Under the pieces are notes generated by a model. The model saw nothing but the letters and a program-made list of their open reading frames with translations. It ran no database searches and was not told the DNA's origin. Below, piece after piece: positions 6,904 through 62,227 of a DNA stretch of 64,000 nt. Made by a program: the position numbers and the translations under genes. The number at the start of each line of letters is the position of its first letter. Within the stretch, counting starts at the first letter, position 1. This DNA is from a virus, in IMG/VR virus record IMGVR_UViG_3300025102_007089, positions 16,614 through 80,613 of that record; one strand, given 5' to 3'.

Positions 6904-8063
6904 AGACCGTAACGTCTAAGTTCCTCTAACTGCCATTGAGTTTTAGGCTTATATCTTTCTTTAAAGGATTGATTTTTGACTTCAGTCTTTTTATTTCTTT
7001 TGTCTGAAGCTGTCTGCTCAGTCAAATAAGCAGCAGTTGAGGTTTCGGAAACTTCTAAATGGGGTTGAGCTACGTACTCTTTACTTTCTTTATTCATAGC
7101 TTGTTTAATTTTCTTTCTCCTATTTAAAAGGTATTCATCAGTCTTATCTTCATCTCCATCATTATCAATATCTCCGTCTTCTTTACCTACAGGATCCATT
7201 TCATCTTCTGCTACCGCGGCAGCAGCTAAAGCTTTTTGCTGCTCTTCATAATCATCACCCGTCACATCACTAGCATCTCTTGCCATGGCGGCAATATGTG
7301 GATCTTCTTGATCAGACTTTACAGCAACTTGCGCTTTTGCTGGTTTGATGATAGTTGATAAATAAGCTGCAATTTTTTCATAACCTGGCTCATTTGCTAT
7401 TTGTCTTACAAAACTCTCAAGCTGTTTAACTGTGTTAATTTTTTCTGCGTAATCAACAACTTGATCTAAAGCTTGATCACTAATATCAAATCCTTCATCT
7501 CCTAAGTTTTGCTTAATATCATTTAAAACTCTATTCATTAATCCCTTAACAAGCATTACTTCATCTATATCAGCACCAATTTCATCTGATAACTTATCCG
7601 CAAGTTCATCAGGATCAGCTGCTTTAATTTGCTCTACTTCTTGTGGAGTAAACTCCCCTCTCTTTTGATCGTTTTTTAATGCAAAGGCAATTAGAGCATC
7701 GCTTTCAGCTTCAATATACTTATCAAGCTTTTCAGCTCTATCATCTAAAAAATAATCCGGATCCTTATCACTTAAATATTTTATAATTTGAGTAGAAGAA
7801 GTACTCATACGATATAATTTTTCTGCTTCTGCATCATTTATAACATCTAAATTATATAACGCTCTAATCATCATACGATTTTTTAATCTTGACTGTGAAG
7901 GAGCTGGTCTACCCTCAGGGTCACGGTATGCTTTTAATTTAGGGCCTAACCCTTTACGCACCATTTGCTTATATCGAGAAAGAGCATCTTTTTCTTCGAG
8001 AATTTCTGCTCTGTTGATTAAATCATTAAAGCTATTAATATTAGTTATATCAAAGGAACTCAT
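6900..8063 (-). CDS. Late acidic protein with a calcium-loop-like motif, probably virion
   Basis: 387 residues, helical and acidic. The region near residues 300-312 reads DGDIDNDGDED, like the DxDxDG calcium loop of EF-hand or dockerin motifs, followed by a basic helix (LLNRRKKIKQAMNKES). The C-terminus is basic and low in complexity. A perfect late box lies 6 bases before the start. I believe similar loop-plus-basic-helix segments occur in hypothetical proteins of marine T4-like phages, but no function is known to me. Its stop overlaps that of queC through a shared TTAA. Confidence 0.7.
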   Translation of the reverse strand: MSSFDITNINSFNDLINRAEILEEKDALSRYKQMVRKGLGPKLKAYRDPEGRPAPSQSRLKNRMMIRALYNLDVINDAEAEKLYRMSTSSTQIIKYLSDKDPDYFLDDRAEKLDKYIEAESDALIAFALKNDQKRGEFTPQEVEQIKAADPDELADKLSDEIGADIDEVMLVKGLMNRVLNDIKQNLGDEGFDISDQALDQVVDYAEKINTVKQLESFVRQIANEPGYEKIAAYLSTIIKPAKAQVAVKSDQEDPHIAAMARDASDVTGDDYEEQQKALAAAAVAEDEMDPVGKEDGDIDNDGDEDKTDEYLLNRRKKIKQAMNKESKEYVAQPHLEVSETSTAAYLTEQTASDKRNKKTEVKNQSFKERYKPKTQWQLEELRRYGL

Positions 8064-8069
8064 ATAATA

Positions 8070-8077
8070 TATTTATA
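8070..8077 (-). promoter_or_regulatory. Late promoter, TATAAATA
   Basis: Read on the minus strand this is TATAAATA, ending 6 bases before the ATG of the 387-residue late protein. The message should be leaderless or nearly so. Confidence 0.8.
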
Positions 8078-8080
8078 CCT

Positions 8081-8533
8081 ATGAAGCTGAATTATAAGGA
8101 TTTTAATAAAATGACTGATAGGGAGTTGTTCAAACTTCCTGGAGTTGGTAGAACTACAGCTAAACGGATTATTGGTTTTAGACCGTTTAGAAATAATAAC
8201 GATTTATTCAAGGTTAAGGGGTTGGGTAAGAAGACCTTAAAGCAATTAGGTATTGAAAAAGCTAAGAAAAAGCAGAAAAAGTGGTATACAATTGATGGGG
8301 TTGAATATCCAGATAATGCTTTAGCTAAAGATAAAAGATTTGGAACTATTGATTTATTTTGGCGCATCCCTAAAGCTCATAGAGAGAGTATTAGTGAGCC
8401 ATCTCCTTGGATATTACGTATGCGAAGAATTAGTGAACGTATCAGAGATGAAGGACCTGAAGGTACTATGAGTAGATATGTTGATAATTCGTATATGTGG
8501 GAGCCAGGTTTCAAGTTTCCGTGGGAAGATTGA
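8081..8533 (+). CDS. Helix-hairpin-helix DNA-binding protein
   Basis: 150 residues. Two tandem helix-hairpin-helix motifs cover about residues 15-60: LPGVGRTTAKRI and VKGLGKKTLKQLG, as in ComEA-type non-specific DNA binders. A lysine-rich linker follows (KKKQKKW), then an unrecognised 85-residue domain with tryptophans and many arginines. The divergent neighbour starts only 17 bases away. It heads the replication cluster, so a role in DNA metabolism is likely; no catalytic residues can be named. Confidence 0.75.
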   Translation: MKLNYKDFNKMTDRELFKLPGVGRTTAKRIIGFRPFRNNNDLFKVKGLGKKTLKQLGIEKAKKKQKKWYTIDGVEYPDNALAKDKRFGTIDLFWRIPKAHRESISEPSPWILRMRRISERIRDEGPEGTMSRYVDNSYMWEPGFKFPWED

Positions 8534-8562
8534 AAAAGTAAAACCTTACTATAATTATTTTT

Positions 8563-9231
8563 ATGTGTGCAATTTTCGGATCTCCTGATACTACAATGGT
8601 AGAAATACTGTATCAAGCTAATAAAGAACGAGGCAATTTTGCTAGTAGTATAGTTCAATTAACAGATTTCGAGCAACATGTACTTAAGAAAGAAGGTGAT
8701 ATAGACTTTGAACAGGTTACATTAGATGAAAAAAATAATTATTATCTAGGACATGTCCAGGCTCCTACTTCATCACAAAGAAAATGGCATTACGATACGT
8801 CGCATCCGTTTGAGACTATGTCATGGATGGTATTTCATAATGGAGTTATAACAAATGAAGAATCTATTAGAAATAAAAAACTATCTCATATCTTAAATCC
8901 TGTAGATACTGCTTTAATAGTAAATCTTATACAACAATATATGGAAAGAGATAAGTCAAGTAAACCTAACCCTATAAAATATATTAAAAAAGCGCTTGAG
9001 GATCTCGATGGATCATTTGCATTATCAATATTAGATTGTGATACTAATGAACTATACTTAGCAAGAGTAGGCTCAGCTCTACACTATAATAATGATGGTT
9101 GTTTTTCTACTATGCCGGGTAATAATTATAAAGAAGTACCTGAGGGAGTTATTTTAAGACTCAATAGAAAGACTAACAACTTTAATAAAGTAGGTACGTT
9201 TAAACATACTTCACCCTTTTTGTTTATATGA
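8563..9231 (+). CDS. Class II glutamine amidotransferase (Ntn glutaminase)
   Basis: 222 residues forming only the glutaminase domain, which frees ammonia from glutamine for a partner enzyme. The start is clear: Met is followed by the nucleophile Cys2 in CAIFG. GHVQAPTS (63-70), HNG (92-94), the VDTALIV segment (about 114-120) and LDGSFAL (148-154) match PurF/GlmS/AsnB-type glutaminases. There is no synthetase domain, so a partner is needed. Fused Gat-QueC proteins are known in phage deazaguanine DNA modification, which makes the QueC at 6148-6903 the best candidate. It overlaps the next gene by 4 bases (ATGA). Confidence 0.85.
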   Translation: MCAIFGSPDTTMVEILYQANKERGNFASSIVQLTDFEQHVLKKEGDIDFEQVTLDEKNNYYLGHVQAPTSSQRKWHYDTSHPFETMSWMVFHNGVITNEESIRNKKLSHILNPVDTALIVNLIQQYMERDKSSKPNPIKYIKKALEDLDGSFALSILDCDTNELYLARVGSALHYNNDGCFSTMPGNNYKEVPEGVILRLNRKTNNFNKVGTFKHTSPFLFI

Positions 9232-9881: not shown

Positions 9882-9894
9882 CTATACTACAGTT

Positions 9895-11202: not shown

Positions 11203-11224
11203 CAAAAGGAACTAAATAGTTTGA

Positions 11225-13034: not shown

Positions 13035-13049
13035 CTAATATAAAGATAT

Positions 13050-13895: not shown

Positions 13896-13896
13896 A

Positions 13897-15046: not shown

Positions 15047-15378
15047 ACAAACAAACTAAGAACAAATTACAGACAGCTAGTTATTTTATTAAACGTCTTA
15101 AAGATTCAGGCTTCGAAACATGGAAAATTTATAATGGGTACGAGGAACATGATCCAAGAAAATGGACTGTATTAGTAGATCCAGGTGGTAAGTCAGTTTT
15201 TATTACATGTTTCGAAAATACACCATTCAAAGGCGAGTATTTATTTTCCTTTGATGATGGTAACCGTGATTTTAGACCAGGTTTTAGTTTAAAGACCTTC
15301 TCTATCGAGGTTGTAGTTAGAAAATTAATCGAAAACGGTGTCAAACAAAGAGAAGATAAAGTAGATTTACATAAATAA
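15043..15378 (+). CDS. Unknown 111-residue protein
   Basis: It overlaps gp45 by 4 bases (ATGA). The sequence mixes short strands and aromatic residues (WKIYNGYEEHDPRKWTVLVDP), suggesting a small beta-rich domain with a C-terminal helix (VVVRKLIENGVKQRED). No family recognised. It is within the replication cluster and probably co-translated with the clamp. Confidence 0.62.
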   Translation: MNKQTKNKLQTASYFIKRLKDSGFETWKIYNGYEEHDPRKWTVLVDPGGKSVFITCFENTPFKGEYLFSFDDGNRDFRPGFSLKTFSIEVVVRKLIENGVKQREDKVDLHK

Positions 15379-15382
15379 CGTT

Positions 15383-16765: not shown

Positions 16766-17807
16766 TCTACCTAGAGAATACGTTATACAAAAGTTTTATG
16801 AATATTCATTTAGCCCATTGTATAACAAGTTTAATAATGTATATCAAGGTGGGTGTTTTATTTGTAAAGAAGGTGGGTCATTTGGTAAAAAGCGACGGTT
16901 TTACTATATACCTGAAAATGATAACCTGTTTTGTCATAACTGCGGCTGGTCTAGTAGACCGTTAAAGTGGGTTAAGAAGGTTACCGGGTGTTCCGATACT
17001 GAAATAATTGAAGAGCTTAAAAATTACTCGGTTGAAGTAAAGATTGAAGATGAGGAAGCTAAGCCAACTATTAAAGTCGAGACCTTACCTACAGATAGTA
17101 TTAATCTGTTTGATGAGCTTCAGCGCGACTTTTATAATAGCAATGATATTGTTAGATCTGTTAGACATCTTATTAAAGAACGTAGATTAGACACTGCTGT
17201 AAATAGACCTGATAGTTTATATTTGTCTTTAACTGATAGAGTACATAAAAATAGATTGGTAATACCTTTTGTTAACGAGAAAAATAGTATAGAATTCTAT
17301 CAAACGAGAACTGTACTTAATCGTGATAATAAAATAAAGCCTAAGTATCTCGGTAAGGTTGGTTCAGAAAAAACTTTATTTAATATTGATAGAGTAACTA
17401 ATGATCATGATAAAGTTTATGTATTTGAAGGCCCTATCAACGCTTTCTTTACTAAAAATTCAATAGCCGTAGCAGGTATTACTGAAAGAGGTAAGTCTTT
17501 TACTCAACGACAGCAACAACAGTTTGATAATGTCTTAAAATTCTTTGAAAGAGTATGGATATTAGACTCTCAATGGATTGATAGAGCTTCTCTGATAAAA
17601 TCCGAAGTATTGCTTAAACAAATGGAGAAAGTCTTTATATGGCCGGAAAAATTTGGTAAAAGATTTAAAGACTTCAATGATATTGTTATGGCATGTAAGC
17701 TTGACGAGATAAAATGGGACTTTATACAAAATAATACCTTCGAGGGTATCGAAGGTATTATTAAATTGACAGAGATAAAAAAATACTCTAATCTTAAACG
17801 TACTTAA
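16758..17807 (+). CDS. 61: DNA primase (gp61)
   Basis: 349 residues; it makes RNA primers and works with gp41. The zinc site has C33-x2-C36 and C59-x2-C62 (CFIC and CHNC). The TOPRIM domain includes VFEGPINA (222-229, catalytic Glu) and ILDSQWID (268-275), where the usual DxD is spaced as D-x4-D, slightly unusual. It is the last gene of the replication cluster and converges with the next gene, overlapping by 14 bases. Confidence 0.9.
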   Translation: MINLPREYVIQKFYEYSFSPLYNKFNNVYQGGCFICKEGGSFGKKRRFYYIPENDNLFCHNCGWSSRPLKWVKKVTGCSDTEIIEELKNYSVEVKIEDEEAKPTIKVETLPTDSINLFDELQRDFYNSNDIVRSVRHLIKERRLDTAVNRPDSLYLSLTDRVHKNRLVIPFVNEKNSIEFYQTRTVLNRDNKIKPKYLGKVGSEKTLFNIDRVTNDHDKVYVFEGPINAFFTKNSIAVAGITERGKSFTQRQQQQFDNVLKFFERVWILDSQWIDRASLIKSEVLLKQMEKVFIWPEKFGKRFKDFNDIVMACKLDEIKWDFIQNNTFEGIEGIIKLTEIKKYSNLKRT

Positions 17808-18225
17808 ATTGAGGATTACCTGTCTGTGCTAAATACCCCTTAAAAGATTCTGTAACACCTGCAAGTTCAGTAGCTACCCTTGAAATTTTTCTCTGTTCTG
17901 ATTGTTTCATTCTATCAAAGACAGTATCTGGCTCTGCATTAGCTAATTTCTGTTGAATTGAATCAGGCTCTTCACCATTAAGATAATCTAAGAATTCTTC
18001 CATCTTACCAATCCATCCTCTCAATTCGTCCTTCATAGCCTCATTTCTCTCAGCTACAGCTGATGCTGCTCTTACAGAAGGATCATCTTCACTTACCTCT
18101 ACATCTAGATCAACGTCAAATTCTTCAGGGTTAGTATCCTGATCTAACGAATTTTCAAAAGCTTCTTTTTCATCATCATCTTGTTCTTTTAGTACAGTAA
18201 AAAATCTCTTTTCAAATTTAGTCAT
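17794..18225 (-). CDS. Late acidic protein of unknown function
   Basis: 143 residues, acidic in the first half (DQDTNPEEFDVDLDVEVSEDD) and helical in the second (RGWIGKMEEFLDYLNG). The opening MTKFEKRFFTVLKEQ is a motif I associate with small hypothetical proteins of marine T4-like phages. A late box ends 5 bases before the start and forms half of a 24-bp palindrome. Probably a minor head or core protein, by expression class only. Confidence 0.65.
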   Translation of the reverse strand: MTKFEKRFFTVLKEQDDDEKEAFENSLDQDTNPEEFDVDLDVEVSEDDPSVRAASAVAERNEAMKDELRGWIGKMEEFLDYLNGEEPDSIQQKLANAEPDTVFDRMKQSEQRKISRVATELAGVTESFKGYLAQTGNPQFKYV

Positions 18226-18229
18226 ACAT

Positions 18230-18253
18230 TTATTTATGCTCGAGCATAAATAA
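18230..18253. promoter_or_regulatory. Divergent late promoters in a 24-bp perfect palindrome
   Basis: The sequence is its own reverse complement, centred on CTCGAG. Each arm reads GCATAAATAA outward. One box ends 5 bases before the minus gene at 18225, the other ends 6 bases before the GTG at 18259. Confidence 0.82.
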
Positions 18254-18258: not shown

Positions 18259-18591
18259 GTGGCTAACAACGGATATTACCCTTATTTTACAGGAATTGCT
18301 GATAAACAGTATTCACCTAACTTAAACACTGATGCACAAGTAAACAAGTATAAGGAGGATGAAGCTAATCAAAAAGCACCGCCCATACTTCCTTATGAAT
18401 TACAGCAGATACAGCAACTCATAGGAGATACCTTTGTCTCCCTAGCGGAACTAAGGGCTATGCTTACAGCAGCGTCTGATAAAAACGGTATAGATAGCAG
18501 TGTTATTGATAGTATTAATCAGAAAATAGATAAAGTTAATGAAATATTAACACTTGAAATTCCTGAAGATCTATCTAAAATATCTATATGA
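18259..18591 (+). CDS. Late protein of unknown function
   Basis: 110 residues from GTG 18259 (MANNGYYPYFTGIADKQYS). The late box spacing supports this start over the out-of-frame ATG at 18257. The first 50 residues are polar and likely extended; the rest is helical (LPYELQQIQQLIGDTFVSL). Overlaps the next gene by 4 bases. Likely a small structural protein; no family recognised. Confidence 0.65.
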   Translation: MANNGYYPYFTGIADKQYSPNLNTDAQVNKYKEDEANQKAPPILPYELQQIQQLIGDTFVSLAELRAMLTAASDKNGIDSSVIDSINQKIDKVNEILTLEIPEDLSKISI

Positions 18592-19254: not shown

Positions 19255-20094
19255 ATGAAAAAGCTTACCATAGGGTTATGTGTATACGATGATTTTGATG
19301 GTATATATTTTACATTACAATCTCTAAGACTTCATCATTCAGAGGTAATGAATGAGGTTGAATTTATTATTATAAATAATAATCCTAAATCTCATCAAGG
19401 GGGTGAAATTCAAAAGTATACTAGACATATTACTGAGCCTTTAACCTATGTTGAGTACAGCTCTTACAGTTCAACTGCATTAAGAGATAAAATTTTTACC
19501 TTAGCTAACACACCTTATGTACTGGTAATGGACTGTCATGTTCTGCTAGAAGGTGGTATTTTAAAAAAGCTTATTGAATTTTATGATCAAGAAGAAGATA
19601 AAGGTAATCTATTACAAGGTCCTTTAATTTATGATGATTTGAATAATTTAAGCACTCATTATGATCTAGATACTTGGGGAGCCTATATGTGGGGTACCTG
19701 GGGCACTGATAAAAGAGGAGAAAAAAGAGAAAATAAACCTTTTGAGATTCCAGCGCAAGGACTCGGTTTATTTAGTTGTCGTAAAGATGCTTGGTTAGGT
19801 TTTAACAATCAATTTAGAGGCTTTGGTGGGGAAGAAGGTTACATTCACGAAAAATTTAGACAAAATGGTAAAGTTACATTGTGCCTACCCTGGCTTAGAT
19901 GGTTACATCGGTTCCAACGACCGCATGGAGTACCATATAACTGCGATTTAAAAGATAGATTTAGAAATTATATGATAGGCTTTACTGAACTTAAGTTAGA
20001 TACTAGTGAAGTAATCAAACAATTTCAAGAAGTTATCTCTTCTAAGTATATAGCTCAAGTTAAAAAGGAGCTTGGTATTACTAAGAAAAAATAG
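19255..20094 (+). CDS. Glycosyltransferase family 2 (GT-A)
   Basis: 279 residues. The N-terminus (LTIGLCVYDDFDGIYFTLQSL) and VLVMDCHVLLEGG near residue 95-110 (DxH metal site) are typical of GT-A enzymes. GGEEGYIHEKFRQNG followed by WLRWLHRF resembles the acceptor region of polypeptide GalNAc-transferase-like enzymes. It probably decorates a virion or host glycan; the acceptor is unknown. It converges with the fibre gene and overlaps it by 14 bases. Confidence 0.82.
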   Translation: MKKLTIGLCVYDDFDGIYFTLQSLRLHHSEVMNEVEFIIINNNPKSHQGGEIQKYTRHITEPLTYVEYSSYSSTALRDKIFTLANTPYVLVMDCHVLLEGGILKKLIEFYDQEEDKGNLLQGPLIYDDLNNLSTHYDLDTWGAYMWGTWGTDKRGEKRENKPFEIPAQGLGLFSCRKDAWLGFNNQFRGFGGEEGYIHEKFRQNGKVTLCLPWLRWLHRFQRPHGVPYNCDLKDRFRNYMIGFTELKLDTSEVIKQFQEVISSKYIAQVKKELGITKKK

Positions 20095-21211
20095 ATAGGC
20101 TATTATCAGGTATTAAGAAAGGAAGGCCTCTATAGTCCCCTTCTATAGTAATATTATTATCGATAGCAAAATCATCCGCTCTTTCTTTAGGTATAATACC
20201 AATAGTTTGAATATTTAACCCTGTATCAACTAATATACCTTTAAATCTTATTGGTGTATCAACAGAAATATTGTTATCAGTTCTAAATATGGTAATATTT
20301 TGTTTAGCTGTTTCTAATAAACTAATATTAGCTTGATCAGCAATTGCTGAAATACCTACCGCGGTAGTAATGTTACTATTAGGGTTGAAACTATTACCTC
20401 TTGTAGTTAGAGTTTCAGTTATCACACTATCAGTAACTAAACCTTCAATATGTGGGTCTTTTAAGAAGAATTTACCTACTGATAAGGCGGGGCTTGATGT
20501 TGAGACTGGTGTAGTAAACGAATAACCTACAAAAACGTCTAAATTATCAAAGTTATCTAATTCTAAAGGTAAACTAACAGTAGTAAGTGTTTCAAATTTA
20601 GAGTTTACATTTCTATCTATAGATATTTTAGTACCTAAATTAGCGTATCTAAACCTTAAAGTTGTAAAATCGTCCGAAGTTAAAGGTATAGTAGGTGAAA
20701 AAGTAGATAACTCTTCATAAAAAACTAAGCTCTTATTAAAATCTCTAATACAGAGGGAATTTCTTCTTACTTCATGAGGTTTAACCCCGTCTCTACCATC
20801 TCTACCTGATAAACCATAAAGTCCAGTAGTATCAAAAACTATTTTAACTAGTTGACCGCTTAAGCTAGTAGAATCAATTACTAAATTTTCACTACTTTCA
20901 GTAAGAAGAGGTAAAGCTGCTTCAGAAAGCAATGAAACAGCTGATAAAGCAACACTAGGGTCTTGATCTCCGACATATTGACCCGGTAAAGAAGAAATTT
21001 CTGAGGTTAATGTAGTTAAGAACGTACCAAAAGCGTATTCAACAGCAGATTCAGGAGCTTGCCATGAATTACCTTCTAGACCTAGATCTCCAGGTACTTT
21101 AAAATCAAACGACCATACAATATCATAATTAGAATTATATCTAAAATCTTTTTCTACAAATTGATACGACCTCTCACCGGGTGGTAGCTTTATTTCGTTA
21201 GGTAGAGCCAT
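20081..21211 (-). CDS. Putative tail fibre-associated virion protein
   Basis: 376 residues, late box 6 bases before the start. The opening MALPNEIKLPPGERSYQF is followed by a domain with DIVWSFDFKVPG, then a glycine-rich turn LYGLSGRDGRDGVKP that resembles a short collagen-like stretch, and a beta-rich C-terminus. It is the most 3' gene of the fibre block. No named family; virion location inferred from position and promoter. Confidence 0.6.
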   Translation of the reverse strand: MALPNEIKLPPGERSYQFVEKDFRYNSNYDIVWSFDFKVPGDLGLEGNSWQAPESAVEYAFGTFLTTLTSEISSLPGQYVGDQDPSVALSAVSLLSEAALPLLTESSENLVIDSTSLSGQLVKIVFDTTGLYGLSGRDGRDGVKPHEVRRNSLCIRDFNKSLVFYEELSTFSPTIPLTSDDFTTLRFRYANLGTKISIDRNVNSKFETLTTVSLPLELDNFDNLDVFVGYSFTTPVSTSSPALSVGKFFLKDPHIEGLVTDSVITETLTTRGNSFNPNSNITTAVGISAIADQANISLLETAKQNITIFRTDNNISVDTPIRFKGILVDTGLNIQTIGIIPKERADDFAIDNNITIEGDYRGLPFLIPDNSLSIFS

Positions 21212-21217: not shown

Positions 21218-21225
21218 TATTTATT
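21218..21225 (-). promoter_or_regulatory. Late promoter, AATAAATA
   Basis: Minus-strand AATAAATA ends 6 bases before the ATG at 21211. Confidence 0.75.
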
Positions 21226-22954: not shown

Positions 22955-22962
22955 ATTTTTAT

Positions 22963-24405
22963 TTAATAGTTAAAAATAGGTATGGCGTACCTATCGAATG
23001 TTTGTGAATTATTTCTCGTTGTACCAGATAAAGCTAAAGTTAAAAATCCTGCTGAACTAAGTGTATTTATATTTCCGCTTGAATCTTTTGCTGTATATGT
23101 ACTGCCATCGTGTTGATAACTGTTACTAACTTGATTAGGCGCACCAGTAAATACACCTTTTACAACGCTAGTAGCTTTAATAATGAAAGTAGTATCAACT
23201 GCACTTAAATTAACAAATGCTGAATCATGTTGTCTAGCAGATAAGTAGTAGACTTTAGAACCAGCAGTACCAAAATCAGGATTCTGATTATTACCATATA
23301 AAAACTGCCCTCCGGTTAAATTAGGTACTCTAAAGTCTGTACCTCCCTCACCACCAGTATTATAATTAGTACCTATAGCATTATATAGATCACTATATTG
23401 ACCTGTTTGTGAATAAACAGCGCCATCACATAAAACAAACCCGTGGGGAACAGCTCCAATAGCCCGAGCATGAGGTAGTATCGTACCAACTGGTACAAAA
23501 TCAGCTCCAGTTAAGGATGTAGCTGTCATAGTATCAAAGAAAGTAGATTGAACATTTTCAACTATACCTTTACCATTAAGAGATAAAAATGGTGCTTCAT
23601 AATTACCAGATACAGGTTTATTAACTAAAGAAATAGTACTATTATTAACATTGAAACTCTCCCCATCTACTGAGCATAGAGTTGTATTAATTGTTTGTGT
23701 TTCTAAATTAACATTTAAACCGTCGCCAAATATATTTAAATCTAACGCACTAAATAAAACTGAAGAAGAATCAGCAGGGCCTGCAGCTAAACGATTCCCT
23801 TCAAATATTAATCCGGAGCCAATATTTACTTGAATTGGCTCTCCATTACCACCCGATAACCCAGCTGATAAAGCTGTATTTTTAATCTCTCTTTCAGTAA
23901 TTGAGTTACTTACAGGTGTTAAAAATCCTCCCGATAGTTCAAAATAATCAGTACTAAAATTAACATCTATAGCTTGCCCGTTTCTTACTAAAGCTTTACC
24001 AAAAGCTTCATTCATTAAATCATTACCATCTATAGAACTGAGTTTTATTGTAAGATGGTTACTACCATTAAATTCAATATTAGCATCATCAGGCACGGCA
24101 CCTATATAAGACCAACCAGAAAGAGCATTAGTATATTGTTCAGCTGATAAAGCATATAATTTATTATTTGCATAGCCAAAATCACCTATTTGTGCACCAA
24201 CATTACCACCTAATCCAGATTCAACATTAAAAGATCCAAAGTTTTTACTTCCTACAACATTACCACCTGAAAGAGCGCCATCCCCTACAAATAGTCTCTT
24301 TGTATCAATAGTATAACCTACTTCTCCTTGATCTAAAACTACACGCTCTCTTTCAGAGTCGGTTCCTCGTCTTACTTTAAATTTTACTATAGTAATATCT
24401 GCCAT
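22963..24405 (-). CDS. Tail fibre paralogue with Mtd-like N-terminus and collar domain
   Basis: 480 residues. The N-terminus (FKVRRGTDSERERVVLDQGE, then IDTKRLFVGDG) matches the neighbouring fibre at most positions. A collar domain occurs near 310-370 (VPVGTILPHARAIGAVPHGF, LCDGAVYS, FRVPNLTGGQFLYG). C-termini differ, suggesting duplication followed by receptor-driven divergence. No clear late box at the correct spacing is seen, so it may be read from the upstream gene. Confidence 0.82.
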   Translation of the reverse strand: MADITIVKFKVRRGTDSERERVVLDQGEVGYTIDTKRLFVGDGALSGGNVVGSKNFGSFNVESGLGGNVGAQIGDFGYANNKLYALSAEQYTNALSGWSYIGAVPDDANIEFNGSNHLTIKLSSIDGNDLMNEAFGKALVRNGQAIDVNFSTDYFELSGGFLTPVSNSITEREIKNTALSAGLSGGNGEPIQVNIGSGLIFEGNRLAAGPADSSSVLFSALDLNIFGDGLNVNLETQTINTTLCSVDGESFNVNNSTISLVNKPVSGNYEAPFLSLNGKGIVENVQSTFFDTMTATSLTGADFVPVGTILPHARAIGAVPHGFVLCDGAVYSQTGQYSDLYNAIGTNYNTGGEGGTDFRVPNLTGGQFLYGNNQNPDFGTAGSKVYYLSARQHDSAFVNLSAVDTTFIIKATSVVKGVFTGAPNQVSNSYQHDGSTYTAKDSSGNINTLSSAGFLTLALSGTTRNNSQTFDRYAIPIFNY

Positions 24406-25039: not shown

Positions 25040-25053
25040 ATAATATATTTAGT

Positions 25054-29417: not shown

Positions 29418-29447
29418 TTACATATATATTTAAGCTGTAAATTAAAT

Positions 29448-32899: not shown

Positions 32900-32907
32900 T
32901 ATTTATT
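32900..32907 (-). promoter_or_regulatory. Late promoter, AATAAATA
   Basis: Minus-strand AATAAATA, 6 bases before the ATG at 32893. It overlaps the last base pair or two of the upstream gene region. Confidence 0.75.
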
Positions 32908-37348: not shown

Positions 37349-37376
37349 TACTTATATATTTAATAAGAAACCTCTT

Positions 37377-37619: not shown

Positions 37620-37640
37620 TATTTATAGATTTAATAAATA
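37620..37640. promoter_or_regulatory. Divergent pair of late promoters
   Basis: Minus-strand TATAAATA (37620-37627) serves the 76-residue gene. Plus-strand AATAAATA (37633-37640) ends 5 bases before the ATG at 37646. Confidence 0.75.
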
Positions 37641-38196: not shown

Positions 38197-38204
38197 CATA
38201 AATA
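38197..38204 (+). promoter_or_regulatory. Late promoter, CATAAATA
   Basis: CATAAATA ends 5 bases before ATG 38210; a second overlapping AATAAATA is too close to the start to be the functional one. Confidence 0.72.
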
Positions 38205-39884: not shown

Positions 39885-39892
39885 TATTTATG
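39885..39892 (-). promoter_or_regulatory. Late promoter overlapping the gp44 stop codon
   Basis: Minus-strand CATAAATA includes the TAA of gp44 (39888-39890) and ends 6 bases before the start of the secreted protein. This switches an early gene's end into a late gene's start. Confidence 0.75.
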
Positions 39893-41270: not shown

Positions 41271-41278
41271 AATAAATA
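41271..41278 (+). promoter_or_regulatory. Late promoter, AATAAATA
   Basis: Ends 5 bases before GTG 41284, so it also supports that non-ATG start. Confidence 0.75.
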
Positions 41279-45269: not shown

Positions 45270-45280
45270 ATATATATTTA

Positions 45281-47850: not shown

Positions 47851-47872
47851 GTCTATATTTACTTAGTAAATT

Positions 47873-48649: not shown

Positions 48650-49240
48650 TTATAATTGTTTATAATTTTTACAAGCAAACGTTACCGACTTTTCAATGAA
48701 GTCATCACTATCATGACTAACTGTATAGCCCTCTACAGCTGTAGGAAAAGCATCTTCAAATATATAACCTTTCCTCATAGAACCCTGATTATTATATTGT
48801 TTGACTACTATATTAGTTTTTAAGCCAAAGTTAATTAACCCATCTATTCCTAATGCAATCATCCATGGTCTCATAAAACCATGTTCAATATCATCTTCAG
48901 TTTCTAAAAAATTTATACTAAATGATCTAGTTAAAAAATCGTTTCTTTCAATTAATGAATACCCCGGTAAAAAACCTCCTCTATTGTTTACACTTTGTGG
49001 AGCAAATACACTTGATTCTTGAGGAGTAGTTACCGATCTTGCTACTAATATAGCTCCTCCTTTTGTTAGTAAGCTTGGTTGAACGTTAGCTGACCAATTT
49101 TCATTACCCTTTTGTAGAGCAGAATTAATAGCTCCAGATAAATCACCATCTATAGATACTTTCCATAGAAAGGGGTTAGATACGAAATATCGACTTTCAG
49201 AACTAAATGCCTGAAGAAAGTCTGAAGAGCCATTTGCCAT
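48650..49240 (-). CDS. Tail tube-fold protein (gp19 paralogue)
   Basis: 196 residues. DFLTRSFSINFLETEDDIEH, FMRPWMIALGIDGLINFG and VEGYTVSHDSDDFIEKSVTF follow the strand order of the gp19/gp48/gp54 tube fold. It follows the main tube gene. It could be a tube initiator or terminator rather than the main tube subunit. CATAAATA lies 5 bases upstream (49246-49253). Confidence 0.6.
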   Translation of the reverse strand: MANGSSDFLQAFSSESRYFVSNPFLWKVSIDGDLSGAINSALQKGNENWSANVQPSLLTKGGAILVARSVTTPQESSVFAPQSVNNRGGFLPGYSLIERNDFLTRSFSINFLETEDDIEHGFMRPWMIALGIDGLINFGLKTNIVVKQYNNQGSMRKGYIFEDAFPTAVEGYTVSHDSDDFIEKSVTFACKNYKQL

Positions 49241-49271
49241 AATAATATTTATGGCTAAAAGCTAAGAACGT

Positions 49272-49805
49272 TTAGCTAAAGTTTCTATAGAAGTGATAAG
49301 CGAATGTTACTGAGAAGTTTAAAATCTCTCCAGTACCTTCAGCGATAGAATAATCAACAGCATTAATATCTCTTAAAGATGCTCCAACTAATTCAATTGA
49401 TTGGATTACGTTTAACTCTTTGTTAATTACATCAAGGTTAATAACTGACTCATCACCGGGCATACCATACTGACCTGTAGAAGTCTCGTTATCAAATACA
49501 TTTCGCGACGCTAGTTCGAACTTAGATCTAAGATCAATTCCTTCATCATGATAAAACTCTATAGAATAAGCTTCTGATCCCGGGTAAGTTGATTTACCAG
49601 GAATATTAAATGCTTGACCATAATAATTAACAACTTTATTTTCAATGTTTCTACCTGGGAGTTGAGCTGATCTAGCATAAACTAAATCAGTATCTCCGTC
49701 AAATGTTACACCTTCAATATTAATTTGTTTTACTCTAAATAGAAAATCTCGAGCAAATTGCTTATCTGCTGCCCTTGAAAAGAAGTTTTGAATTGTTGTC
49801 GCCAT
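49272..49805 (-). CDS. 19: Tail tube protein gp19
   Basis: 177 residues (T4 gp19 163). Segments NFFSRAADKQFARDFLFRVK, ARSAQLPGRNIENKVVNYYG and AYSIEFYHDEGIDLRSKFEL match tube subunits. The gene immediately follows the sheath gene, as in T4. Hexamers form the inner channel for DNA. Box ATTAAATA 5 bases upstream (49811-49818). Confidence 0.88.
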   Translation of the reverse strand: MATTIQNFFSRAADKQFARDFLFRVKQINIEGVTFDGDTDLVYARSAQLPGRNIENKVVNYYGQAFNIPGKSTYPGSEAYSIEFYHDEGIDLRSKFELASRNVFDNETSTGQYGMPGDESVINLDVINKELNVIQSIELVGASLRDINAVDYSIAEGTGEILNFSVTFAYHFYRNFS

Positions 49806-49828
49806 AATAGTATTTAATTAAAAAAGTG

Positions 49829-52318
49829 TTAAGCACCTATAATTTCTTCAAAATTAGCATCAGTGCGAGTTGCAATGAAGTTAACTAAGATAAATTCTGC
49901 TGTTCGTGTCGGCTTAAGGTAAATATCAACCACTAACTCGTTAGCATCTATAACTTCCGGGGTGTTGTTTCTTTCGTCACAAACTATCAGATAGTCGAAT
50001 AGACCCTCGTTATTTTTAGCTCTCTCAAACAATGGCGTAAGAACGTTAATAAGTCTCTGTCTAGTAAACTCAGTATTTTGTTCAAATACAAAGAATCTAG
50101 AAGCTTTCTTAGTAGGTCGCTCAAGTGATAAAAACAACCTTCTAACGTTAATTCTATCAAACGCACTAGGTTTCTTACTTAAAGTTTTCTGACCGAATAT
50201 AACTTGGCCTTGACTTGGGAAGAATGCTACTGGGTTAATATTAGCTTTATAAAGCTCGTCTCTCTGTTTTTGGTTAGGATTAATAGCTAGATCATTAGCA
50301 AAGCGAACTAACCCTCTCGTAAAGCCTGCTGGGGCAAACCATGGGAAGAAGTTAGCATCTGTCTGTGCCATAGCAGCTCCAGCAAATCCAGAGAACGGTA
50401 CAAATACATTTCTACCAGAGTATTCATCATATATTTCTGGCCACTGTGCATATACTGCAGCGTATGAAGTATTTTCATTCTCAAACTGGTGTCTGATTGG
50501 CCAGTAAATATCCTTTTGGAAGTTTCTACTCTTGTTATCAAGAGTTCTACTCTTTTCACCTGAAACTAGGATCTGACGTAAGACATCTGCAATAAACAGA
50601 CAGTCTCCTCTATCCCCGCCTAAGAATGGTGGAGTGCAGAACTTCTCAAATCTATTAAAGATAGTTGAGTAATCATTTCGCAAAGTCCTAGCAGAATCAA
50701 CAATATCATTTGATGTTCTTAACCCATTAACAGCAGTAACTAAATTGCCATCCATTGCATATTCATCATAATATGTAGTACCTGAAGCATTAGAAGCAGC
50801 GTGTATTGTTCCTAAGCCACCTTCTACAACAACATCTATATCATAGATTTCATCGTTCTTTATTCTTTCTAACGCTCTATCAATCTTAAGAGGTATATCA
50901 CCTAAAATTTTCTCTTTAACTTGTTGATCATTAAATGCTCCTAGAGGGTAAAGAGCATCTGCTCTTTCAGGTGCCGAAGCACTTCCGCCTAACGCTAGAC
51001 CTAATTTCTCTACCATTTGCTTACCACCTCCTGAAAGACCTAACTTAGCAGATGTCAGACCACCATCCGTACCTGCGCCACCTGAAAGGCTCTCTAATTC
51101 TGTAGCAAGATTTTTAGTAAATACTCTGATTTTCTTACTTGCTACCTTATCCCCTATAGTTTCCGGATTAGGATTATCAATCTGACCATCTGTACCTTTA
51201 AAGTAGTTAGAAATATAAGGATTAACAAGTACTTCAACGTTTCTAGATTTAGTATCTTGATTTTCAATGAAGAAGTTAACTTCAGGTCCTCCTGTAGGAT
51301 TAAGCTGCTTTCTATAGTAGTTAATAGAACCAACAACTGCATCTTCAAGCAAGTAATCTAACTTAAATGCTTCAGAAGCATATGTTGATTTACGCAATTT
51401 AAACACTCCGATGTTAAGCACATCATCATCTTCTCTACCATCAATATCGTAATCAGTAAGATTTTCTAATATCTCAGAAATACTACCATTTTCCCCTCTA
51501 GGTTCTGCAGAAAGAGAAAACTGTCTTATACCATCAGGTACTGTTGTATAAGCAGTACCAGATCCTTGCCCTCTACCATCACCAGCAGTTCCACCACTAT
51601 TAACAGTTTTTAATCTTGTTACTGCATTAAAGTTTGAATCGGGATTAAGGTTAGTATTGTCAGCAACACCAACATAATAACCTTCAAAATCATCATTAAT
51701 AGTAGTTTGACCTTTGTTTAAAATAACCATTCCAGCTCCTGCAAAGCTTGATACAGTACCAAAATCTGTACCGGTAAGCGACTGGGAGTGGAAAGTAAAT
51801 CCTGAACCATCTAAGCAACTTAAATATTGCTCATTAGTAAGTATTTGTTGTTGAGGCTCTCCTAACACGTACGTTGCGTCAATTGTCAAATCGGGTACTT
51901 TTTGGTCAAGTTGGTTAGTTACATAGTTTCTGTTAGAAAGGGCATCAACAGCAGTGGTGACCCCGCTACCTGTGAGTGTAGAATTTACTGCAACTACAGG
52001 GTATACCAATGCTGTATAAACTGAACCAAATCCATCTCCTTTAGCAGCACCGTAAGGTAATCTGGATGCATAAACCGTTCCTGGAGAATTAAGTAACTCG
52101 CTGATAGAATGGTAAAAATAACGTTCAGCTGAGTTAGTAGGCGTACCAAAAGTATTATCTAATTCTTGTTTAGAAGAAATAAGTAAAACCTCGTCAAGAG
52201 GTCCTTCCTGAGCAAACCCAGTAATATAAAAATTTGTACCTACGTTTTGTGGTGCGATGAGAGATAAGTCTGATTCTCTGATTTCAACACCTGGAGAATT
52301 AATAGTTCGTTGAGCCAT
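49829..52318 (-). CDS. 18: Tail sheath protein gp18
   Basis: 829 residues; T4 gp18 is 659, so this one has about 170 extra residues, probably in the outer domains. The C-terminal region holds FAPAGFTRGLVRFANDLAIN, NPVAFFPSQGQVIFGQKTL and the sheath handshake end LKPTRTAEFILVNFIATRTD. It contracts to drive the tube into the cell. Late box AATAAATA at 52324-52331, 5 bases before the start. Confidence 0.95.
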   Translation of the reverse strand: MAQRTINSPGVEIRESDLSLIAPQNVGTNFYITGFAQEGPLDEVLLISSKQELDNTFGTPTNSAERYFYHSISELLNSPGTVYASRLPYGAAKGDGFGSVYTALVYPVVAVNSTLTGSGVTTAVDALSNRNYVTNQLDQKVPDLTIDATYVLGEPQQQILTNEQYLSCLDGSGFTFHSQSLTGTDFGTVSSFAGAGMVILNKGQTTINDDFEGYYVGVADNTNLNPDSNFNAVTRLKTVNSGGTAGDGRGQGSGTAYTTVPDGIRQFSLSAEPRGENGSISEILENLTDYDIDGREDDDVLNIGVFKLRKSTYASEAFKLDYLLEDAVVGSINYYRKQLNPTGGPEVNFFIENQDTKSRNVEVLVNPYISNYFKGTDGQIDNPNPETIGDKVASKKIRVFTKNLATELESLSGGAGTDGGLTSAKLGLSGGGKQMVEKLGLALGGSASAPERADALYPLGAFNDQQVKEKILGDIPLKIDRALERIKNDEIYDIDVVVEGGLGTIHAASNASGTTYYDEYAMDGNLVTAVNGLRTSNDIVDSARTLRNDYSTIFNRFEKFCTPPFLGGDRGDCLFIADVLRQILVSGEKSRTLDNKSRNFQKDIYWPIRHQFENENTSYAAVYAQWPEIYDEYSGRNVFVPFSGFAGAAMAQTDANFFPWFAPAGFTRGLVRFANDLAINPNQKQRDELYKANINPVAFFPSQGQVIFGQKTLSKKPSAFDRINVRRLFLSLERPTKKASRFFVFEQNTEFTRQRLINVLTPLFERAKNNEGLFDYLIVCDERNNTPEVIDANELVVDIYLKPTRTAEFILVNFIATRTDANFEEIIGA

Positions 52319-52349
52319 AAAATTATTTATTTAATTCCGACCTAAAAAG

Positions 52350-52928
52350 TCAAAAATCGACAACTTCTGTATGAAGTTGCGAGTAAACGAACGTAAACCC
52401 TGAAATAATCTCGTCTGTATTTTGATAATCGTAGTCTATCGTATCAATTGATACAGGAAACGCCTTAGTATATGTAAATTTTATTCGACTATTATTAAAC
52501 TCATCTTTACCAAAAATAGTAAGATTTACCTGGTAATCTTGAAAATTTTTATCGATTTGAATTTCTCTTGCATTATACTTACCCTCACGCTGATCATGAA
52601 GTAAGTTGAGCCAGTTATACATCACCCAGTAGTTTTTATATTCATTATCGATTTTAAATTTTACACTTACCGGAGGGTATGAGTTTTTAGAATGAGAACT
52701 TACATAGAGCGTATTACCAGCGTATCTATTTTCAATAGCAGGTACTGTAATCTCAGGTACCGCAGTACCAAAAATAGAAAATTGAACAGAATCAGGTATA
52801 ATATGCTTATTATCTTGATTAAACTTTTTACTAAACTCTTTTAATATAGGCGGTACATCAAAAACTAGTAAAAACTTATCAGCTCTAGATTTATTAAGAA
52901 CTGATTGCTGTAAATTGTTACGTGCCAT
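52350..52928 (-). CDS. Tube-fold virion protein between terminase and sheath
   Basis: 192 residues. DKFLLVFDVPPILKEFSKKF, then EITVPAIENRYAGNTLYVSS and YWVMYNWLNLLHDQREGKYN, fit the strand-helix-strand order of the gp19 tube fold. T4 has no gene here, but marine relatives may have an extra tube-like protein. It could be a tail terminator or an alternate tube subunit. Late box 6 bases upstream (52935-52942). Confidence 0.6.
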   Translation of the reverse strand: MARNNLQQSVLNKSRADKFLLVFDVPPILKEFSKKFNQDNKHIIPDSVQFSIFGTAVPEITVPAIENRYAGNTLYVSSHSKNSYPPVSVKFKIDNEYKNYWVMYNWLNLLHDQREGKYNAREIQIDKNFQDYQVNLTIFGKDEFNNSRIKFTYTKAFPVSIDTIDYDYQNTDEIISGFTFVYSQLHTEVVDF

Positions 52929-52937
52929 TATCTATAT

Positions 52938-54635
52938 TTATTGCAAAGGCATAAAGCCATTGTCTAATAATTCACCCATATCTTCTTCAACCTCATCCCC
53001 CATACCCCAAACTATAGGATTTAAGTTATAATTACCTTCACCAACAACAGTGTTATCCAGATATATTGACGTGTTATCTTCAAATAAAGTTACACCGAAA
53101 TCCATAGGTTCAATCACTAGAGGTTGACCGGTAGAATCAAACTCTACAATATCAAAATATCTTTGAGCTAATTCTTGATCTAATATATACAATGCATATA
53201 AAAGAGACATAACCCTATCATCATGCTCTCCGCTTCTTGCCTTCCAGGTACCATTAGGGTAACGAACAAAGTCTTTCAACTCTTTTAAGGTATCGATATC
53301 TCTCAAAGTAACAACTCTTAAATCATTGAGCCAGTATCTCATATTCAATACACCTTTATGTTTAGTATTTGTATGAGCTATCATACCTAACATTATATTT
53401 TTTCTATGAGCTTTTTGATTACCATATGATACTATTTTTTCATAACCTAAATCATTAGCTAATCTATCTACTACCTGAGCTCCACAATTATTTCGTTCAA
53501 TTAACGCTAAAGGTGATCCATAATTTCTTAAAATAGAATGAACCTTGTTAGTGTACTCTAAAGGAGGCATCTTATTATTGTGGTAAGTAGCTACTTGCCG
53601 TATATCAGTTGGATCAGTTATATCTAAAATTTGCATTACAGCTGCATCTTTCCCCACCCCTTCAGATGTATCAACCCCTGCAACATATATTCTAGATGGA
53701 TCTGGTTCTTCCCATATTTTATAATGCCCATCCTCTAAAACAATTTTGGGTTCTATAATTTTAGAGCTTAGCAATTCATATAATTCTTCATCAATAGAAG
53801 ATTCACCAAAATTTACAAACTCACATTCAAACTCTTGTATCCAAGCATCGTATGATCCTATAGCGTGTCTAGTAGCTTTAGCCCACTCTTCGTCTCTTCC
53901 TGGTACTTCATTCCACATTATCTTATCATGAGCCCAGTTATTAATACCGTCAACTGCTCCTGAATATATTTTATGAAAAAGATTACCTGTACCATTTGCA
54001 GTAGAACATACAAACACTTTAGAATTTTTAGAAGAAGTAATGATCGGAAAGACCGACTTCCAAAACTCTTCAACTAAATGAGGTTCAATAAATGCCATCT
54101 CATCAATAACTAAACAGTTAACAGATTGACCACGTGCAGCTGTACCGGTCGTAGTTGTAATACCTATACGGCTACCATTTTCTAAGGTCATTGACGTTTT
54201 AGCATATTCCTTAACCGGTGGCTTTAACCAGTTAGGTAATTCCTCATAAGCCATTCTTACTCTTTGAAATATTTCAATAGCGGTAGCTTCTTTGTTAGCT
54301 ACAAGGAGTATACGTTGATCACTATTGAAGCATGCTTGCCACAAAATATAGATAGTCATCATAGTGGACTTACCAATCTGTCTAGAAGCTAATAGACAAA
54401 AAAATCTATTATCTCTCATTTTTCTTAAAGCGCCTTTTTGAGCTTTATAAAGCTTTATTTTTTCTTTACCTCTATCTAGATTAATGATATGAAAGAAGTT
54501 TTCAGCAAAAAATAATATATTTTGCGAAGCTTTTTTTAACTGTTTAACTTGATCTTTTGTGTATTCTCCACGCCATTTAGTGTTGGGTAAATTTTTATTA
54601 CCCATGTAATACATGTTATTATTATTGTCAGGCAT
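52938..54635 (-). CDS. 17: Terminase large subunit (gp17)
   Basis: 565-residue packaging motor. ATPase: Walker A SRQIGKST (84-91), Walker B CLVIDEMA with D178-E179, coupling motif VCSTANG near 209. RNase H-like nuclease: D322 (GVDTSEG), E380 (LIERN) and H471-D472-D473. All catalytic residues are present. The start is set by a GATAAATA late box 6 bases upstream. Confidence 0.96.
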   Translation of the reverse strand: MPDNNNNMYYMGNKNLPNTKWRGEYTKDQVKQLKKASQNILFFAENFFHIINLDRGKEKIKLYKAQKGALRKMRDNRFFCLLASRQIGKSTMMTIYILWQACFNSDQRILLVANKEATAIEIFQRVRMAYEELPNWLKPPVKEYAKTSMTLENGSRIGITTTTGTAARGQSVNCLVIDEMAFIEPHLVEEFWKSVFPIITSSKNSKVFVCSTANGTGNLFHKIYSGAVDGINNWAHDKIMWNEVPGRDEEWAKATRHAIGSYDAWIQEFECEFVNFGESSIDEELYELLSSKIIEPKIVLEDGHYKIWEEPDPSRIYVAGVDTSEGVGKDAAVMQILDITDPTDIRQVATYHNNKMPPLEYTNKVHSILRNYGSPLALIERNNCGAQVVDRLANDLGYEKIVSYGNQKAHRKNIMLGMIAHTNTKHKGVLNMRYWLNDLRVVTLRDIDTLKELKDFVRYPNGTWKARSGEHDDRVMSLLYALYILDQELAQRYFDIVEFDSTGQPLVIEPMDFGVTLFEDNTSIYLDNTVVGEGNYNLNPIVWGMGDEVEEDMGELLDNGFMPLQ

Positions 54636-54641
54636 CGAAAA

Positions 54642-54662
54642 TATTTATCAATAGTATAAATA
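54642..54662. promoter_or_regulatory. Divergent late promoters between gp17 and a head gene
   Basis: Minus-strand GATAAATA (54642-54649) ends 6 bases before gp17. Plus-strand TATAAATA (54655-54662) ends 5 bases before ATG 54668. The two start codons are only 32 bases apart. Confidence 0.82.
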
Positions 54663-54667
54663 ATTAC

Positions 54668-55567: not shown

Positions 55568-55586
55568 GATTAAAATTAAAGCTAAG

Positions 55587-55624
55587 AAAAGCCTGTTGAC
55601 TTAGGTCATCAGGCTTTTTTTATA
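55587..55624 (+). terminator. Rho-independent terminator
   Basis: AAGCCTG pairs with CAGGCTT, extended inside by TGAC/GTCA, followed by a T run. It separates the acidic late gene from the nucleotidyltransferase. Confidence 0.9.
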
Positions 55625-55630
55625 TAAATA
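55623..55630 (+). promoter_or_regulatory. Late promoter, TATAAATA, overlapping a terminator tail
   Basis: Perfect TATAAATA beginning in the T tract of the terminator and ending 8 bases before GTG 55639. Termination and re-initiation are nearly back to back. Confidence 0.8.
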
Positions 55631-55638
55631 TAATTGCT

Positions 55639-57508: not shown

Positions 57509-57528
57509 AAGGTAAATAAATATGTATA

Positions 57529-59710: not shown

Positions 59711-59715
59711 GTAAT

Positions 59716-59736
59716 TATTTATTAGAAGAATAAATA
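59716..59736. promoter_or_regulatory. Divergent late promoters, both 5 bases from start codons
   Basis: Minus AATAAATA (59716-59723) and plus AATAAATA (59729-59736) lie 5 bases apart. Each ends 5 bases before its ATG (59710 and 59742). Confidence 0.82.
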
Positions 59737-59741
59737 TTTTC

Positions 59742-60944: not shown

Positions 60945-61387
60945 TGAGAAGAAAGAAAAAATGGAGGCAGGGAGTATTTGTTCCACAAAACCAAAAAAAA
61001 TTTATAGGGGAGAGAGCAGTTTATAGATCAGGTCTTGAATTAAAGTTTTTTAGATTTTGCGATCAAAATAAAAATATAGTCCGGTGGGGTAGTGAGAATA
61101 TAATTATACCATATCGTAGTCCTCTTGATGATAGAATGCATAGATACTACGTTGATAATTATGTAGTTATCAAAGAAAAGAACGTCTTAAAAAAATACTG
61201 TGTTGAAATAAAACCATCAGCTCAAACTAAAAAACCACAAACAAAATACCGTAAAAAGCAACATCTTATTTACGAGCAAAAAATGTACGTTACTAACGTT
61301 GCTAAGTGGAAAGCAGCTAGAGAGTATTGTAAAAAAAGGGGTTATACCTTTCTTATTTTAACTGAGAAGGAGCTTTTTAGTCGCTAG
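60944..61387 (+). CDS. 4: Head completion protein gp4
   Basis: 147 residues (T4 gp4 150). KWRQGVFVPQNQKKFIGERA, YRSGLELKFFRFCDQNKN, YYVDNYVV, CVEIKPSAQTKKP and VAKWKAAREYCKKRGYTFLI line up with T4 gp4. D-x(n)-E-x-K in a PD-(D/E)XK layout suggests a nuclease-like fold. It acts after packaging, before tail joining. Confidence 0.92.
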   Translation: MRRKKKWRQGVFVPQNQKKFIGERAVYRSGLELKFFRFCDQNKNIVRWGSENIIIPYRSPLDDRMHRYYVDNYVVIKEKNVLKKYCVEIKPSAQTKKPQTKYRKKQHLIYEQKMYVTNVAKWKAAREYCKKRGYTFLILTEKELFSR

Positions 61388-61389
61388 CG

Positions 61390-61397
61390 CATAAATA
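61390..61397 (+). promoter_or_regulatory. Late promoter, CATAAATA
   Basis: GCGCATAAATA ends 6 bases before the ATG of gp21; the box starts 3 bases after the gp4 stop. Confidence 0.78.
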
Positions 61398-61403
61398 ACT
61401 TAT

Positions 61404-62069
61404 ATGGCTTTAAAATTGAATCTTGTAGTAGAGAACCCAGATGTAGCTGATGAGTTTGAGTACATTGAAGAAGAGACTAATAGAAATGAACCATCTAACC
61501 TTTACATTAAAGGTCCTTACATGATGGCTGAAGGGGTAAATAGAAATAATCGATTATATCCTCTAAACGAGCTTAAAAGAGAAGTTAAGCGCTATAATGA
61601 AGAAATGGTTATACCGGGTAGAGCCATGGGTGAGTTAAATCACCCTACTAGTGCTGATGTAGACCTTGAAAGAGCTTGTCATATGGTAACTGAAATAACG
61701 CAAGACGGTAATATTTTTTACGGTAAATCAAAAGTTTTAACAACACCATGTGGACAAATTGTACGTTCATTAATAAATGACGGTGTTAAAGTTGGTATGT
61801 CCTCTAGAGCATTAGGTACATTAGAAGAAGGAGCTGAGCATAATACTGTTAAAAATATGAAATTGGTTGCTGTAGATTGTGTAGCTGATCCTTCATATCC
61901 CAAAGCTTTTGTAAATGGAATTTTAGAATCTAAGCAATGGGTGTTAGCTGAAGACGGCAAATATGAGGAACATTACGATAATTTTGCAGCTAGTTTAGTT
62001 AATTTACCAAAAAAAGATGTAGAATCTTTTTTAACTAGTAGAATTTTAAGCTTTATCAAAAATTTGTAA
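61404..62069 (+). CDS. 21: Prohead protease gp21
   Basis: 221-residue serine protease that matures the prohead by cutting scaffold and capsid precursors. H80 in ELNHPTSADVDL and the SSRALG segment with S133/S134 are the expected catalytic residues; LERACHMV is also conserved-looking. The next genes are a small core-like protein, gp22 and gp23, as in T4. Confidence 0.93.
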   Translation: MALKLNLVVENPDVADEFEYIEEETNRNEPSNLYIKGPYMMAEGVNRNNRLYPLNELKREVKRYNEEMVIPGRAMGELNHPTSADVDLERACHMVTEITQDGNIFYGKSKVLTTPCGQIVRSLINDGVKVGMSSRALGTLEEGAEHNTVKNMKLVAVDCVADPSYPKAFVNGILESKQWVLAEDGKYEEHYDNFAASLVNLPKKDVESFLTSRILSFIKNL

Positions 62070-62080
62070 TAAATAATAAT

Positions 62081-62227
62081 ATGTCAGAAGAAAAAAAGAA
62101 CATTACTAAGTTTATAGAACGACTTTCTTCTAAAAATTATGCCAAGGCGCATAAATATTTAAAGCAGGTTGTTGAAGATAAAATCTTAAAAAGAATTAAC
62201 AAAGCAACCGAAAAACCACTCTTTTAA
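62081..62227 (+). CDS. 48-residue basic protein, probably prohead core
   Basis: A short frame from ATG 62081: MSEEKKNITKFIERLSSKNY and on to KINKATEKPLF-like lysine-rich end. It is one long amphipathic helix. The box AATAAATA (62068-62075), which overlaps the gp21 stop, ends 5 bases before its start. Position between protease and scaffold is where T4 keeps small core proteins such as gp67/gp68, and it is the right kind of sequence. Function by position. Confidence 0.7.
   Translation: MSEEKKNITKFIERLSSKNYAKAHKYLKQVVEDKILKRINKATEKPLF

Follow-up and report, generated by a model that had tools for sequence, protein, structure and literature searches.

Why does the hexamer TAAATA stand five or six bases in front of so many start codons in a T4-like phage? 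The question is raised by the window analysed here, a stretch of 64,000 nucleotides (positions 16614-80613) from the 80.6-kb IMG/VR record IMGVR_UViG_3300025102_007089 (G000). The original prediction was that TAAATA is a late-promoter box placed so close to its genes that most late mRNAs would be leaderless. The window has a GC content of 32% and comes from a divergent T4-like phage, with PHROG matches to gp43, gp32, gp41, gp44, terminase, portal, gp21 and gp23 as well as to baseplate, tube and sheath proteins. The portal protein is approximately 31% identical to portals of cyanophages and Vibrio phages; no named phage has DNA similarity to the record at megablast level. Relatives were gathered by portal and comprise 276 related stretches of IMG/VR viral contigs; the long related genomes are G001 (155 kb), G011 (171 kb) and G010 (197 kb). 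Members of this clade are uncultured marine T4-like viruses of bacteria and are globally distributed.

Late and early promoters are very probably both placed so that transcription starts at or near the start codon; the mRNAs would be leaderless, and the remaining genes would be translated by coupling. Spacing was measured as the gap, i.e. the bases between box end and start codon, at 69 gene starts called by hand from the open reading frames (ORFs) of the window. TAAATA lies at gap 5 (16 starts) or gap 6 (11 starts) in 27 of them, and four further genes have a box at gap 8-9. This agrees with the figure of about 27 genes first proposed: all 23 coordinates listed then are start codons with TAAATA ending five or six bases before them, and the others are 4738, 11225, 15383 and 25039. 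Only 5 of 2580 other ATG or GTG codons in the same sequence have the box at these gaps (Fisher p = 1e-40), while dinucleotide-shuffled upstream sequence gives a mean of 0.47 and a maximum of 4 of 69 starts. In an annotation-free count, 33 of the 173 TAAATA hexamers of the 80.6-kb record precede a long ORF by 5 or 6 bases; approximately 0.5 would be expected per gap. Pooled over four clade genomes, gap 5 has 128 boxes and gap 6 has 49, on a background of 3.4 per gap.

Late promoters of T4 precede +1 by about one helical turn (PMC2988020). At that distance, a box at gap 5 makes the A of ATG position +1. The usual initiator pattern is a pyrimidine at -1 and a purine at +1. Of 139 gap-5 starts in five genomes, 133 have T or C at base -1, and all 63 gap-5 starts of the orthologue sample have a pyrimidine there; this appears to be an initiator signature, which would lend independent support to +1 on the A of ATG. 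At gap 6, base -1 is often A, so the predicted leader is 0 or 1 base. A -10-like signal approximately 10 bp before the start is the accepted sign by which leaderless genes of bacteria are recognised in silico (PMC3160421); clade genes carry such an element at this distance. The boxes are of the T4 late type, i.e. TATAAATA-like without a -35 element: the core is TAAATA, the two columns before it are mostly A,A instead of T,A, and late genes with gap 5 show no strong information peak around -35.

Early genes without TAAATA have TTGA, approximately 17 bases and then TATAAT, with 6-7 bases left to the start codon. In the four pooled genomes, TATAAT occurs 33 times at gap 6 and 25 times at gap 7, on a background of 3.9 per gap. 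Sigma-70 promoters with +1 at the start codon would be expected to show this spacing; early mRNAs should consequently be leaderless too. It had been anticipated that early genes would differ in spacing. This is true of TAAATA, but TATAAT holds a similar position. The plus-strand sigma-70-like -10 elements of the window are TATAAT at 710..715 (gap 6, ATG 722, DNA polymerase; gap 6-8 in 10/10 orthologues), TATAAT at 5051..5056 (gap 7, ATG 5064, UvsX-like, with TTGAAA 16 bases upstream), TATAAT at 8550..8555 (gap 7, ATG 8563; orthologues vary), TATACT at 9883..9888 (gap 6, GTG 9895, gp41-like helicase), TATAAA at 13039..13044 (ATG 13050, the gp32 single-stranded DNA-binding protein; TATAAT at gap 6 in 41/50 orthologues) and TAAAAT at 18576..18581 (gap 6, ATG 18588). 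Across orthologues, the -10 element lies at gap 6-7 in 18/18 cases for UvsX, 42/50 for gp32, 24/26 for primase and 18/18 for gene 18588.

Shine-Dalgarno (SD) signals are absent genome-wide; anti-SD pairing before starts is weaker than at random ATGs. A strong SD kept across orthologues was found for no boxed gene, in line with the earlier claim that the boxed genes have no room for one. Genes of neither promoter class are arranged differently: 23 of 31 overlap or abut (within 3 bases) the upstream gene, against 0 of 31 late-boxed genes (p = 3e-10). A substantial minority of late genes has no box because it overlaps the preceding gene; overlapping genes must be translated by coupling to the upstream gene.

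These observations can be drawn together in one mechanism. TAAATA would be the TATA box of a late promoter, presumably read by the phage gp55 with host RNA polymerase. The box would be shifted to bring +1 onto the A of the start codon at gap 5, and to no more than one base from it at gap 6; every boxed late gene would give a leaderless mRNA of its own. Early genes would use ordinary sigma-70 promoters (TTGA-N17-TATAAT) placed alike; promoterless genes, which mostly overlap or abut the preceding stop codon, would be translated by coupling. 70S ribosomes would initiate on the 5'-terminal AUG. A gp55 sigma homologue (G000:12042-12413; E 7e-25) is encoded in the part of the record that precedes the window and is 37-41% identical to gp55 of S-PM2 and HTVC008M; a clamp loader gene is present at 39888. 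Phage-borne bS21 was not found in ten records searched, nor S1 domain or IF3 in four; a link to phage-borne translation factors was therefore rejected, and translation most likely relies on the capacity of the host to start at a 5'-terminal start codon.

TAAATA could instead function at the mRNA level, being an A/T-rich element that recruits ribosomes in an SD-less host such as a member of the Bacteroidota, with the true promoters further upstream. The genome-wide absence of SDs would suit such an element, A/T-rich stretches ahead of start codons are known to serve as a non-SD signal, and many of the bacterial homologues closest to the phage FolE2 come from Flavobacteriales (61-68%). However, unboxed genes are also without SD and have no motif, overlapping the upstream stop instead, and early genes carry TATAAT with TTGA in place of TAAATA. 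The pyrimidine at -1 marks an RNA start. Counts of TAAATA at gaps 15-32 are at background level in the clade, with no second late-box position in excess, and the Bacteroidota promoter TAnnTTTG is not enriched before genes in the four clade genomes. In HTVC008M, a cultured Pelagibacter phage (L084, L086, L087), most of the 17 tight boxes lack an SD (mean anti-SD -1.7), whereas 86% of the 21 more distant boxes, which lie far from the ribosome-binding region, come with one (mean anti-SD -6.5). These two geometries argue for a promoter that sets, by where it is placed, whether there is a leader; an action in the mRNA is improbable.

Compaction offers a simpler account, in which short intergenic spaces push promoters near genes and leaderlessness is a functionless by-product. 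Many boxed genes do begin 9-31 bases after the previous gene, and the box of 52928 includes the upstream stop codon. The gap is unchanged, however, where 190-240 free bases lie upstream (4738, 20081-21211, 38210); the spacing is thus more than compaction. Compact genomes of T4, cyanophages and a Vibrio phage also lack the arrangement. Long-ORF starts with TAAATA at gap 5 or 6 number 32 in G000, 43 in G001, 49 in G010 and 53 in G011; there are 11 in HTVC008M, 5 in Mosig, 4 in Melnitz, 2 each in P-RSM1 and T4, 1 in P-SSM2, and none in S-SKS1, S-PM2, Syn9, KVP40, Vibrio D490 or Caulobacter Cr30. In T4, cyanophages and Vibrio phages, boxes lie mainly 15-32 bases upstream. Compaction alone is therefore very unlikely to explain the spacing.

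Promoter placement at the start codon is also conserved. Window proteins were mapped onto 242 loci of relatives, counting distinct start regions only; the gap is held gene by gene across these loci and in the three long related genomes. The box hexamer is the best-conserved upstream block in the 59742 and 61404 alignments, where most flanking columns vary. Some portal relatives have a shifted (longer) N-terminus; there, the box sits directly upstream of the new start. The GTG starts that the fixed spacing had been said to decide are conserved: that of 11225 (DHH phosphoesterase) in 52/52 orthologues, as is that of the adjacent 9895 in 44/45, which suggests selection for GTG. That the annotated starts are wrong, with true starts downstream behind leaders with SDs, is hardly credible, since orthologue alignments share the same first ATG, the box tracks the portal N-termini and the GTG of 11225 is invariant, even though the starts were chosen by hand.

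Several points weigh against start-placed promoters and leaderless mRNAs. The mRNA 5' ends are predicted from sequence for every clade member. Leaders of 1-7 bases would remain at gap 6 and at the few boxes lying at 8-12, and the counts use exact TAAATA, so that degenerate boxes are missed. The co-activator gp33 was not detected in a search without positive control, and the gp45 sliding clamp was found in the relative G010 only; a candidate gp45 at L092:9422-10150 has no match to gp45 of G010 and was dropped. The clear exception is the gene for gp23, the major capsid protein. Its 84-base leader (63076..63159, plus strand) has two hairpins and the SD AAGGAAA at 63148-63154, and no box. AAGGAAA is conserved, and the leader covaries in 28 aligned sequences (window and relatives), with compensatory changes in 5 of 10 hairpin pairs. 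No Rfam family matches the leader at gathering score, and it is a candidate new structured RNA. This leader with its SD contradicts a wholly leaderless late programme. The original prediction of leaderless late mRNAs is supported for boxed genes by spacing, conservation, the -1 pyrimidine, the lack of SD and the HTVC008M contrast, but fails for gp23 and for the overlapping genes, which must be coupled.

A two-mode genome is likely on this evidence. Nearly every gene, early or late, would be either leaderless with its own start-fused promoter or overlap-coupled, with the capsid gene and its structured leader as the one large exception. The infection cycle would then run on SD-less start-codon recognition, either natural to the host or brought about by infection shifting the ribosomes.

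Among known systems, the late promoters of T4, KVP40, S-PM2 and Syn9 (TATAAATA, gp55/gp33/gp45) share with the clade the core box, a gp55 homologue, late structural genes and promoters on both strands. In T4 and the cyanophages the box stands 12-30 or more bases upstream, and T4 genes have strong SDs; clade boxes stand at 5-6 bases without SD, and gp33 was not detected in the clade. The pelagimyophages HTVC008M and Mosig and the related methylophage Melnitz resemble the clade in that a minority of their genes (11, 5 and 4 long-ORF starts, respectively) has TAAATA at exactly 5 bases from ATG; unlike the clade, most of their genes keep SDs and many boxes lie at 15-32. Late-promoter prediction "was unsuccessful in PMP genomes" (PMC7029224), and tight boxes in pelagimyophages are not described there.

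Leaderless genes of Actinobacteria and Deinococcus-Thermus likewise have a -10 element approximately 10 bp before the start and no SD, and make up approximately 20-40% of genes (PMC3160421); the clade differs in being a lytic T4-like phage with both promoter classes placed at starts. Bacteroidota and cyanobacteria share SD-less translation with the clade but differ in promoter type, and in many such genomes neither SD-led genes nor leaderless ones were found (PMC3160421). A search of open-access literature, subscription papers not included, found no description of late genes being leaderless in T4-like phages. The AR9 paper describes phage transcripts as "often leaderless", yet AR9 leaders are 26-491 nt.

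As a rule, leaderless mRNAs make up a minority class in bacteria and are known from isolated cases in phages. An entire clade of abundant viruses seems here to have turned both promoter classes to leaderless output, whereas leaders and SDs are kept in T4 relatives. Together with the pelagimyophages, which hold both states, the clade forms a natural series for the evolution of leaderless translation and its capacity to carry a full lytic cycle; the mixed geometry of HTVC008M makes the idea testable in culture. Tight placement explains how late-promoter searches can fail in such phages, and box spacing provides a rule by which start codons can be assigned in many viral genomes from the sea.

Plus-strand late boxes of the window begin with 4071..4076 (gap 8, ATG 4085, Hsp20; gap 8 in 14/14 orthologues), 4727..4732 (gap 5, GTG 4738, with 242 free bases upstream; 9/9 orthologues), 11213..11218 (gap 6, GTG 11225; gap 6 in 39/52 orthologues and 5-8 in the others) and 15372..15377 (gap 5, ATG 15383; 5/5). 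Hsp20 and DHH phosphoesterase belong to the early region; TAAATA alone was therefore dropped as a late-gene marker. The boxed set had been described as head, tail and packaging genes; many are, but the DHH phosphoesterase and several genes of unknown function are boxed too. Further plus-strand boxes are located at 37635..37640 (gap 5, ATG 37646), 38199..38204 (gap 5, ATG 38210, with 228 free bases upstream), 41273..41278 (gap 5, GTG 41284), 55625..55630 (gap 8, GTG 55639; orthologues have gap 5 in 8/10 and gap 8 in 2/10), 57517..57522 (gap 6, ATG 57529, portal), 61392..61397 (gap 6, ATG 61404, head maturation protease; gap 5 or 6 in 41/42) and 62070..62075 (gap 5, ATG 62081; gap 5 or 6 in 29/29).

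Boxes also stand in divergent pairs. The perfect 22-bp palindrome TATTTATGCTCGAGCATAAATA at 18231..18252 holds two back-to-back boxes, one on each strand, for ATG 18225 (minus) and GTG 18259 (plus); these start codons flank the palindrome 33 bases apart, and gene 17794-18225 has gap 5 in 22/22 orthologues. The minus-strand box 54642..54647 (gap 6, ATG 54635, large terminase; 6/6 orthologues) has its plus-strand partner at 54657..54662 (gap 5, ATG 54668; 15/15). The minus-strand box 59716..59721 has gap 5 before ATG 59710, which is the start of its gene, not 59743 (gap 5 or 6 in 8/8 orthologues); the plus-strand box 59731..59736 precedes ATG 59742 of the neck protein Ad2 (gap 5, as in 44/44 orthologues).

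On the minus strand, box 8070..8075 (gap 6) precedes ATG 8063 of the unknown gene 6900-8063; all 13 orthologues, with protein identities as low as 29%, keep gap 6. Others are found at 21218..21223 (gap 6, ATG 21211), 22960..22965 (gap 5, ATG 22954, tail fibre), 25046..25051 (gap 6, ATG 25039, tail protein), 29427..29432 (gap 9, ATG 29417), 32900..32905 (gap 6, ATG 32893), 37357..37362 (gap 8, ATG 37348, gp25-like baseplate wedge), 39885..39890 (gap 6, ATG 39878), 45275..45280 (gap 5, ATG 45269; 4/4 orthologues) and 47856..47861 (gap 5, ATG 47850, baseplate hub; 23/23).

The T4 tail-tube family (phrog_45) is matched by three separate genes, 48650-49240, 49272-49805 and 52350-52928, each with its own late box on the minus strand: 49246..49251 (gap 5, ATG 49240; gap 5 or 6 in 34/34 orthologues), 49811..49816 (gap 5, ATG 49805; gap 5 in 31/33) and 52935..52940 (gap 6, ATG 52928; gap 5 or 6 in 25/29). 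The TAA of the last box doubles as the stop codon of the upstream terminase gene. The tail sheath gene (49829-52318, 829 aa) has its minus-strand box at 52324..52329 (gap 5, ATG 52318; gap 5 or 6 in 33/33 orthologues); the best family match is in the C-terminal third of the protein and a large N-terminal part is divergent.

A portal search for relatives in bacterial genomes found none, and no tRNA genes are present in G000 or G001. FolE2, a GTP cyclohydrolase encoded upstream of the window in G000 (L092:727-1767), is closest to proteins of three Planctomycetaceae contigs of metagenome-assembled genomes (82-84%), followed by Flavobacteriales; the three contigs match no other clade protein. As a single, possibly transferred gene, FolE2 was rejected as a host call and is a lead only. 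A QueC-like protein is encoded at 6148-6903 of the window; with FolE2, it is part of a preQ0/7-deazaguanine pathway, possibly for DNA guanine modification.

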